Positions 42,244 to 43,754 of a stretch of 64,000 bases of DNA are shown here, piece by piece. The first letter of the stretch is position 1. Each line of letters opens with the position of its first letter. The position numbers and the translations under genes were made by a program. The stretch comes from Caulobacter segnis ATCC 21756. GTDB taxonomy: Bacteria > Pseudomonadota > Alphaproteobacteria > Caulobacterales > Caulobacteraceae. The notes below the pieces were generated by a model that saw only the letters and a list, made by a program, of their open reading frames with translations, had not been told where the DNA came from and did no database searches. The stretch is taken from assembly GCF_000092285.1 (NCBI RefSeq), contig NC_014100.1, positions 558,001-622,000 of the forward strand, read 5' to 3'.

Positions 42244-42275
42244 ACGCCGCCCGGAGCGATCCGGGCGGCGTTTTT
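42244..42275 (+). terminator. Rho-independent terminator of ilvE
   Basis: Stem ACGCCGCCCGG / CCGGGCGGCGT with loop AGCGAT, then TTTTT. The same CGCCGCCCGG-AGCGAT stem reappears at 52.1 kb after a TonB receptor gene. Confidence 0.9.
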
Positions 42276-42291
42276 CATGGCGTTCATCTCT

Positions 42292-42390
42292 CGTCATCCC
42301 GGCCGTAGCGAAGCGGAGCGCCGGGACCCAGGGGCGACCACGGTGCGCCGGCCCCTGGGTCCCGGGTCGGCTATGCCGCCCGGGATGACG
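42292..42390. repeat. Family B intergenic palindromic repeat, copy 2
   Basis: About 99 bp after ilvE with ends CGTCATCCCGG and CCGGGATGACG and inner CCGGGACCCAGGGGC. Matches copies at 25.6 and 61.75 kb. Confidence 0.85.
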
Positions 42391-42478
42391 ACGGGTTGTT
42401 CCAAGGATGAGTGGCGGTGAGAGCGTTCCCAGAAATCCGGGGGTGACTCCCAGCCAACTTCGCCTTACCTTTCCTCCG

Positions 42479-42562
42479 ATGACCCTCGCCGCCAGCCACA
42501 CGCTGTTTTGGTATTTTAGCTATCCGACGCCTCTGGCGCCGGGAGGGTTTCGTTCGGCCTGA
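42479..42562 (+). CDS. Putative leader peptide of the DAHP synthase attenuator
   Basis: 27 codons, ATG at 42479 to TGA at 42560-42562. The centre encodes Leu-Phe-Trp-Tyr-Phe-Ser-Tyr (codons at 42503-42523), an unusually aromatic run, and a further Phe at 42548. No Shine-Dalgarno precedes the ATG, so it would need leaderless translation or the in-frame GTG at 42443. A terminator hairpin lies 30 bp after its stop and DAHP synthase begins 101 bp after the stop. This fits ribosome-mediated attenuation by aromatic amino acids. Confidence 0.65.
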   Translation: MTLAASHTLFWYFSYPTPLAPGGFRSA

Positions 42563-42622
42563 GATCAGGGCCATTCAAGAACACCTTCACCAGCCGCCAG
42601 GGGACCCCCGGGCGGCTTTTTT
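42530..42622 (+). promoter_or_regulatory. Attenuator: antiterminator and terminator upstream of DAHP synthase
   Basis: Terminator arms AGCCGCC (42592-42598) and GGCGGCT (42611-42617), with an inner GGGG/CCCC extension, followed by six T. An alternative pairing exists: CCTCTGGCG (42530-42538) with CGCCAGGGG (42595-42603), nine pairs with one G-U, which would break the terminator. The left strand lies just after the aromatic codons, as expected if ribosome position chooses the structure. A small hairpin (CCTG/CAGG) covers the leader stop. Confidence 0.65.
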
Positions 42623-42662
42623 GATGGCCGCCGGACCTTCCCAGATTTCTCCGGAGCCATCC

Positions 42663-43754
42663 ATGCCGTCTTCCACCGCCCATATCGTCTCGCTGCCCGT
42701 CCCGACCGACGACCTGCGGATCGAGAAACTCCAGACCCTCAGCCCGCCCGCCCGGGTGATCGGCGAGGCGCCCGCCACCTCGTCGGTGGCCGAGGTCGTC
42801 GGCGCCGGTCGCCGCGCCGTGCACGAGATCCTGCAGGGGCGCGACGATCGCCTGGCGGTGGTGATCGGGCCGTGCTCGATCCACGACCCCAAGGCCGCCC
42901 TGGAGTACGCCCACCGCTTGGCGGCCGAGCGCGAGCGTCACGCCGGCGAGCTGGAGATCATCATGCGGGTCTACTTCGAAAAGCCCCGCACCACGGTCGG
43001 CTGGAAGGGCCTGATCAACGACCCGGACCTGGACGGCGGCTTCCGCATCAACGAGGGCCTGCGCCTGGCGCGCCGGGTGCTGCTGGACGTCAGCGCCCAG
43101 GGCCTGCCGGCCGCCTGCGAGTTCCTGGACGTGACCACGCCGCAGTACATCGCCGACCTCGTGGCCTGGGGCGCGATCGGCGCGCGCACGACCGAAAGCC
43201 AGATCCACCGCGAGATGGCGTCTGGCCTGTCGTGCCCGGTCGGCTTCAAGAACGGCACCAACGGCGACGTGAAGGTGGCGGTCGACGCGGTGATGGCCGC
43301 CAGCCAGCCGCACCATTTCCTGGCCGTGACCAAGGAGGGTCGCGCCGCCATCGCCACCACCACCGGCAACGCCGACTGCCACCTGGTGCTGCGGGGCGGC
43401 AAGACCCCGAACTACGACGCCGCCAGCGTCGCGGCCGCCGCCGAGGTCCTCAAGAAAGCCGGCCTGCCCGAGCGGATCATGGTCGACGTCAGCCACGCCA
43501 ACAGCGGCAAGAACCACGAGAACCAGCCCGCGGTGGTCGCCGACGTTTGCGCCCAGGTGGCGACGGGCGCCTCGCCGATCATGGGCGTGATGATCGAGAG
43601 CCACCTCGTCGCCGGCCGCCAGGAAATCGTTCCCGGCAAGCCCCTGACCTACGGCCAGTCGGTCACCGACGCCTGCGTCGACTGGGAGACCTCGGTCCGG
43701 ATGCTCGACGACCTGGCGGCGGCGGTGCGGGCCGGTCGCGCGGCGCGGCGCTAG
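42663..43754 (+). CDS. 3-deoxy-7-phosphoheptulonate (DAHP) synthase, class I AroG-like
   Basis: 363 aa from the ATG at 42663 (MPSSTAHIVSLPVPT). Motifs: VVIGPCSIHDPKAALEYA, IIMRVYFEKPRTTVGWKGLINDP, PAACEFLDVTTPQYIADLVAWGAIGARTTESQIHREMASGLSCPVGFKNGTNGD, and MVDVSHANSGKNHENQ. This is the first enzyme of the shikimate pathway, joining PEP and erythrose-4-phosphate. An apparent aromatic attenuator stands upstream. Which of the E. coli isoenzyme types (Phe-, Tyr- or Trp-sensitive) it matches in feedback was not decided. Confidence 0.95.
   Translation: MPSSTAHIVSLPVPTDDLRIEKLQTLSPPARVIGEAPATSSVAEVVGAGRRAVHEILQGRDDRLAVVIGPCSIHDPKAALEYAHRLAAERERHAGELEIIMRVYFEKPRTTVGWKGLINDPDLDGGFRINEGLRLARRVLLDVSAQGLPAACEFLDVTTPQYIADLVAWGAIGARTTESQIHREMASGLSCPVGFKNGTNGDVKVAVDAVMAASQPHHFLAVTKEGRAAIATTTGNADCHLVLRGGKTPNYDAASVAAAAEVLKKAGLPERIMVDVSHANSGKNHENQPAVVADVCAQVATGASPIMGVMIESHLVAGRQEIVPGKPLTYGQSVTDACVDWETSVRMLDDLAAAVRAGRAARR

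Follow-up and report, generated by a model that had tools for sequence, protein, structure and literature searches.

A probable ribosome-mediated attenuator of the class-I DAHP synthase gene in Caulobacter segnis and related bacteria

The locus in Caulobacter segnis

The window analyzed here is a stretch of 64,000 nucleotides from Caulobacter segnis ATCC 21756, and its forward strand carries, at 42663–43754, a gene for a class-I 3-deoxy-7-phosphoheptulonate (DAHP) synthase of the AroG/AroFGH type. The assignment comes from profile matches: the protein scores 525.8 bits against TIGR00034 (cut-off 173.2) and 541.9 bits against NF006723 AroG, which is under that model's cut-off of 568. The start codon is ATG 42663, as had been predicted, and a Shine-Dalgarno-like GGAG is seen by eye just 5′ of it, at 42653–42656 on the forward strand. 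A class-II DAHP synthase is also encoded elsewhere in this genome (G000:C1:3207778-3209094, locus L180), so the attenuated class-I gene is probably its second, adjustable DAHP synthase. By eye, a short reading frame that includes three aromatic codons lies before the class-II gene. A second DAHP_synth_1 match in the genome, at 2.08 Mb, may be kdsA.

Upstream of the class-I gene, a leader ORF on the forward strand (42479–42562) runs for 27 codons from ATG 42479 to the stop at 42560–42562, exactly where the original prediction had located it, and encodes the peptide MTLAASHTLFWYFSYPTPLAPGGFRSA. The putative control codons, examined below through codon counts by position, are UUU UGG UAU UUU AGC UAU (Phe Trp Tyr Phe Ser Tyr) at 42506–42523 on the same strand. 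An ATG-started ORF of 10–40 codons with at least five aromatic codons in six appeared in 1 of 5000 dinucleotide shuffles of 42443–42663. A long GC-rich inverted repeat, noted by eye at 42324–42364 between the terminator of the preceding aminotransferase gene and the leader promoter, looks like a dispersed intergenic repeat.

The leader ORF is followed on the forward strand by an intrinsic terminator with six T at 42592–42622 (arms 42592–42602 and 42607–42617), and the region 42590–42624 folds at −20.0 kcal/mol. A simple terminator scan missed this terminator and listed another hairpin, at 42530–42546 on the forward strand. Segment 3 (42592–42604, forward strand) is common to the terminator (3:4) and to a putative antiterminator (2:3), whose other strand, segment 2 (42529–42543, core 42530–42538), lies in the same orientation within the leader ORF. 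The alternative helix pairs CCTCTGGCG (42530–42538) with CGCCAGGGG (42595–42603) through nine pairs, one of them G-U, and the longer 2:3 duplex reaches −21.4 kcal/mol. The predicted antiterminator thus uses the 5′ arm of the terminator, and the two structures would be mutually exclusive.

Distribution of the leader and its gene

Conservation in relatives was the test on which the original prediction was to stand or fall, and the aromatic codons, the terminator and the antiterminator strand are all kept before class-I DAHP synthase genes well beyond the genus. Among 61 genomes, of which 37 belong to the genus (counting that of the window) and 24 to other families of the order, a protein search (E ≤ 1e-50) found the class-I gene in 19, all in the genus, and the leader core is present at all 19 loci. 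Leader DNA was detected in 37 of 75 genus genomes (E ≤ 1e-3) and is nearly full length in 36 of these. In 18 of the 37 genus genomes, some of which are incomplete, neither the class-I gene nor a leader of full length is present, as if gene and leader had been gained or lost together, like a cassette. Elsewhere in two genus genomes, short stretches match the leader's terminator portion (G001:C5:124371-124405 and G089:C299:93-130).

A codon pattern for Phe-Trp-Tyr-Phe-Ser-Tyr-Pro, with third bases free and serine held to AGY, matched 78 stretches in a species-genome collection. At 63 of them an in-frame ATG lies 21–27 nt upstream and a class-I DAHP synthase downstream; these loci come from Caulobacter, Devosia, Inquilinus, Novosphingobium, Sphingobium and some metagenome-assembled genomes. 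The remaining 15 were dropped as chance (no DAHP synthase; records of other phyla).

The class-I gene is patchy across the class, occurring in 14 of 385 sampled genomes (E ≤ 1e-40). A covariance model of the leader gave 14 strong matches in this sample, in the same 14 genomes as the gene; these score at least 60.8 bits and the other 371 genomes at most 29.7 bits, in a search run with Infernal's stricter filters, which lose weak matches. Thirteen of the 14 leaders had been built into the model; the leader of genome G284 (L187), on a separate contig and left out of the model, was found at E 2.9e-25. With three mismatches allowed, the codon pattern found 38 places in the class, of which 30 were retrieved. 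Among these, one is the window's own and three of the 29 others examined precede a DAHP synthase (26 of the 30 loci were dropped), and this pattern therefore reaches only four of the 14 gene-bearing genomes.

In a sample of 398 genomes of the phylum, the leader model matches 43 (E ≤ 1e-6), including 20 that do not belong to the class, and 41 of the matches lie before a class-I DAHP synthase and two before pheA. Apart from the window's own locus and that of genome G458, whose class-I gene had come up in the protein search of the class, the matches before DAHP synthase make up 39 later loci, 21 from Alphaproteobacteria (one Caulobacter leader was already in the first set) and 18 from other classes; two of these leaders, L236 (with a GTG start) and L246, were picked by hand. 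The first set consists of 138 loci that reduce to 88 distinct leaders, after one locus (L168) was dropped as its contig begins between leader and gene. All leader counts given here are inflated by the relatedness of the sequences.

Several variants were noted along the way. The two matches before pheA-like genes, L250 and L251, are Phe-rich leaders from other classes, and by eye the pheA-like protein of L250 continues into a DAHP-synthase-like domain. Two leaders from one genus (L159 and L161) have an aromatic block in a different arrangement and retain the terminator and the GGCG segment, and the L161 leader has two aromatic codons only. Outside the Alphaproteobacteria, the leaders of one family (f217: L238, L239, L241, L243, L244 and L246) encode a peptide that starts M-S/T/A-A-K-F/L-Y-F-Y-F-F, with Trp missing in some of them.

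Leader start, RNA pairing and the waiting ribosome

A −35-like element, GTGACT (42443–42448), and a −10-like element, TACCTT (42466–42471), 7 nt 5′ of the leader ATG, lie on the forward strand, although a sigma-70 consensus scan of the window listed no promoter at the leader. Their spacing recurs in most of the 87 leaders with enough upstream sequence: GAC starts 34 nt 5′ of the leader ATG in 55 and 33 nt in 16, and TA begins 13, 12 or 11 nt before the ATG in 59, 17 and 13, respectively, the TA counts not being exclusive. One box-spacing scan had a tie-break that favored a spacer of 7, and the scan used to count TA and GAC had none. There is no Shine-Dalgarno sequence 5′ of the window's leader ORF, and similar 4-mers precede three of the 88 leaders, one of the 21 later alphaproteobacterial leaders and none of the 18 from other classes. 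The missing Shine-Dalgarno sequence and the −10-like box at a fixed distance from the ATG lend support to the suggestion that the leader is translated leaderless, and the RNA is predicted to start at or next to the A of the leader ATG. In C. crescentus, 375 mRNAs are leaderless (PMC4117421). By eye, three leaders from other classes (L238, L239 and L241) have no −10-like box at the usual distance, so leaderlessness is not family-wide.

A terminator was detected 3′ of all 88 leaders. Across 45 aligned leaders, 14 cells of the terminator are altered on both sides, and the covariation score of 0.116 was matched by none of 500 shuffles; the numbers of pairs and pair types are unremarkable, reached by 418 and 488 of the 500. 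This covariation and the fold back the terminator in the position originally given. In the same alignment, the antiterminator pairs are present in 91% of cells vs. 18–64% in slid controls. The antiterminator core is nearly invariant, with one compensated pair, in two sequences, and its covariation score was equaled by 106 of 500 shuffles. In pairing energy, the duplex between leader and segment 3 is stronger than in dinucleotide shuffles in 43 of the 45 leaders (mean z −1.8) and in 34 of 37 later leaders outside the model (mean z −2.27 for the alphaproteobacterial ones and for those of other classes alike).

The GGCG of segment 2 is invariant in the 45 aligned leaders and absent from that place in two of the 37 later ones. 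This core is read in another frame in four of the 88 leaders and in two of the 35 later leaders where it is present, and thus it is the RNA, not the peptide, that is conserved at segment 2. The consensus fold of the leaders contains the terminator alone. A possible local hairpin 1:2 (42524–42543, forward strand; median −12 kcal/mol across leaders) was considered as a selected protector element, but dinucleotide shuffles fold just as stably (mean z −0.01, with 23 of 45 leaders below 0), and it is therefore not claimed. Known attenuators do not all need such a protector or pause hairpin.

The effect of a ribosome was modeled by folding truncated transcripts with a ribosome placed on the leader, for the 88 leaders and for 37 later ones. 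With the ribosome at the last aromatic codon, 2:3 pairing exceeds 0.5 in 92% of the 88 leaders, falling to 52% at +1 and 11% at +2. The 2:3 helix is open to form in 35, 24, 15 and 6 of the 37 later leaders at 0, +1, +2 and +3. Pairing lasts longer in the 20 later alphaproteobacterial leaders (17 at +1 and 10 at +2), an edge about one codon later, while in the 17 from other classes the helix is open in seven at +1 and five at +2. A footprint of 9 or 15 nt ahead shifts the model's edge by one codon. Segment 2 would thus stay free while the ribosome waits at the last aromatic codon or at any codon before it, with the control codons placed such that a stalled ribosome leaves the antiterminator strand available; the model agrees, to about that codon, with the proposal that the alternative helix lies where a stalled ribosome could control the terminator. 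At equilibrium, the median 2:3 pairing is 0.88 without a ribosome and 0.55 with one at the stop codon. Termination when amino acids are plentiful must therefore rest on timing, because 2:3 can pair at equilibrium without a stalled ribosome.

Comparison of these loci establishes the leader, its terminator, the complementarity that makes up the antiterminator, the geometry of these parts and their association with the gene. The original prediction of an aromatic attenuator before DAHP synthase draws support from conservation, from terminator covariation and from the antiterminator energies, and the leader very likely controls transcription of the class-I DAHP synthase gene by ribosome-mediated attenuation. 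From this arrangement we infer the start of transcription, translation and stalling, the response to starvation and the sign and size of regulation, as follows. Transcription would begin at or next to the leader ATG, and a ribosome would load at the leaderless 5′ end to make the 27-codon peptide. When aminoacylated tRNA-Phe or tRNA-Tyr (here also tRNA-Trp) is short, the ribosome would wait at 42506–42523 and leave segment 2 open to the emerging segment 3. Pairing of 2 with 3 would block the terminator, and the gene would be transcribed. In times of plenty, the ribosome would run over segment 2, the 3:4 terminator would form and transcription would stop, releasing a leader RNA some 144 nt long.

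Codon choice, alternatives and related systems

Phe and Tyr codons each occur in all 88 leaders and at all 39 later loci, which holds by construction for leaders found with the codon pattern and not for those found by protein search, where both are likewise present in all. The original prediction had the leader sensing all three aromatic amino acids. Trp codons are present in 19 of 19 protein-search leaders within the genus but in only 11 of 21 outside it; the overall figure of 78 of 88 is inflated because the pattern required Trp, and Trp occurs at 34 of the 39 later loci. Sensing of all three thus stands as a proposal for the Caulobacter version and fails as a family feature, since Trp is not conserved in the family.

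Phe codons in the leaders are strongly biased to UUU (194 of 222 vs. 28 of 475 in the downstream genes). Searches by DNA similarity and by model favor kept codons; the protein-search set is free of that bias, and its 21 leaders have UUU at 40 of 44 core Phe codons vs. 17 of 118 in their genes. In the model-found set, Phe codons end in G or C at 3 of 35 alphaproteobacterial positions (97 of 102 in genes) and at 10 of 64 from other classes (95 of 100 in genes), and the GC-ending share of other leader codons stays at 0.83 and 0.73, respectively. The bias belongs to the core, where UUU makes up 173 of 178 Phe codons vs. 13 of 30 upstream of it (40 of 44 vs. 4 of 10 in the protein-search set). A general Tyr codon bias is not claimed, because it is absent in later alphaproteobacterial leaders (27 of 50 GC-ending vs. 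43 of 80 in genes); the corresponding figures are 35 of 194 vs. 218 of 324 in the first set, where the bias is strong, and a moderate 24 of 39 vs. 84 of 97 in other classes. As a separate observation, leaders use UUG for Leu more often than the downstream genes do (57 of 203 vs. 112 of 2133); in many relatives this codon lies, by eye, shortly 5′ of the stop, in the part (42551–42562) where the window's leader has Ser.

RNA structure was considered as the cause of the UUU bias. Changing the third bases to C leaves 2:3 pairing at 0.891 vs. 0.891 and gives a core accessibility of 0.59 vs. 0.63 in the native sequence, higher in the native form in 58 of 88 leaders by fold only. Since the C-ending variants fold nearly alike, structure is a possible but poor explanation. 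Codon bias in attenuator leaders has been explained by selective charging of isoacceptors (PMC1183508). Among 52 tRNA matches in the window's genome, all of them inside the scanned stretches, Phe, Tyr and Trp have a single tRNA each (anticodons GAA, GTA and CCA), so isoacceptor charging cannot explain UUU here, as the single tRNA-Phe reads both UUU and UUC. Where one G-anticodon tRNA serves both codons, NNC is decoded faster than NNU (PMC4046918). The decoding speed of the wobble codon UUU itself would then set the switch, and in Caulobacter a single leader would serve as an OR gate, answering a shortage of Phe, Tyr or Trp. We put forward only tentatively, as somewhat less than an even chance, the full picture of a Pseudomonadota-wide attenuator that travels with the class-I gene, is tuned by UUU decoding speed and in Caulobacter answers Phe, Tyr and Trp as an OR gate. 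The same genome also holds an unusual tRNA-like gene with anticodon TTA, which ARAGORN labels "tRNA-Stop" (G000:C1:4576233-4576318, locus L298).

Other readings of the leader differ widely in probability. It is possible, though rather doubtful, that the attenuator answers Phe and perhaps Tyr only, with Trp as a passenger and tRNA-Phe, perhaps tRNA-Tyr, as the signal. Trp is absent from 10 of the 21 protein-search leaders outside the genus and from five of the 39 later loci, and Phe and Tyr never are; the strongest codon bias sits on Phe, and the Phe-Tyr-Phe leader of C. glutamicum answers Phe alone (PMC11802643). Against this, the genus keeps the Trp codon without exception in its protein-search leaders, and a ribosome waiting at that codon leaves segment 2 free in the model; all Devosia leaders have Trp too, but they were found by a pattern that requires it. 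An unlikely reading is that the leader RNA or peptide acts in trans, in the manner of rnTrpL and peTrpL of S. meliloti, besides or instead of attenuation. The terminated RNA would be a small leaderless mRNA similar to rnTrpL (PMC7298713), and Caulobacter, Devosia and other genera share the peptide core F-W-Y-F-S-Y-P, but the peptide varies between families, and what conservation tracks is codons and RNA pairing (the UUU bias, the GGCG in shifted frames) rather than the peptide alone.

That a small-molecule riboswitch or a protein-bound attenuator operates here, the ORF being incidental, appears very improbable: the nucleotides are strongly conserved, which speaks for it, but the conserved part is a reading frame coding for the product amino acids, the leader has no Rfam match and the consensus fold is limited to the terminator. 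Coincidence, in which the ordinary terminator of the upstream gene adjoins a chance ORF, has a negligible likelihood and nothing in its favor beyond the GC-rich sequence. Conservation across classes and the 1 in 5000 chance estimate contradict it, and the upstream aminotransferase gene is followed by a hairpin and T run of its own, seen by eye near 42244–42277, where the simple terminator scan places a hairpin on the reverse strand only.

Neshat et al. reportedly described, in 2014, the aroR leader before aroF of C. glutamicum. This system combines a Phe-Tyr-Phe peptide 5′ of a DAHP synthase gene with ribosome-mediated attenuation, as proposed here (PMC11802643; PMC4046766), and attenuation of a DAHP synthase gene is thus not unprecedented. 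Compared by description, aroR differs in being actinobacterial, in that Tyr limitation had no effect and in that no Trp is mentioned for it. The trpL attenuator of S. meliloti resembles the window's leader in its alphaproteobacterial host, its leaderless ORF at the RNA 5′ end and its use of transcription attenuation, but has Trp codons and controls trpE(G) (PMC7298713; PMC10117765). Before Acholeplasma aroF, the uORFC-13-1 motif also combines a predicted Phe-coding uORF with a terminator, but, compared by description, it has a predicted ribosome-binding site and belongs to another phylum (PMC8632094). Attenuation was proposed for aroF of Shewanella and E. coli (PMC2659441, citing Camakaris 1980). 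In two Vibrio, database predictions place putative attenuators 5′ of aroA-tyrA (PMC1173090). The Shewanella and Vibrio proposals likewise concern attenuation of gammaproteobacterial DAHP synthase genes, as predictions only, and, compared by description, the passages on them describe no leader peptide of the present type.

The pheA attenuator (Rfam Phe_leader, RF01859) has a Phe-rich leader and follows the same logic, and our leader model also picks up two leaders of pheA (E 2.0e-7 and 2.9e-7); it differs in its gene and in that the DAHP synthase leaders add Tyr and often Trp codons. RF01859 matches the pheA locus L250 (79 bits) and falls below its cut-off at L251 (31 bits); it gave no match in the window stretch, in seven loci at the gathering score or in 11 DAHP synthase loci at E ≤ 0.5. 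No Rfam family matches any DAHP synthase leader tested. Among the matches listed from the open-access literature, no description of the present leader family was found, and the best-listed ones contain none of the leader peptide strings; the terms sought are absent from PMC2965389, and in PMC10117765 such terms do not concern DAHP synthase. Related bacteria have leaders like that of C. segnis, and neither Rfam nor the open-access papers searched describe them.

With one tRNA for both codons, isoacceptor theory predicts no difference between UUU and UUC, and single-base changes between them would separate isoacceptor charging from the decoding-speed account. More broadly, alpha- and other proteobacteria with this gene probably use the leader to control the first step into aromatic amino-acid synthesis.
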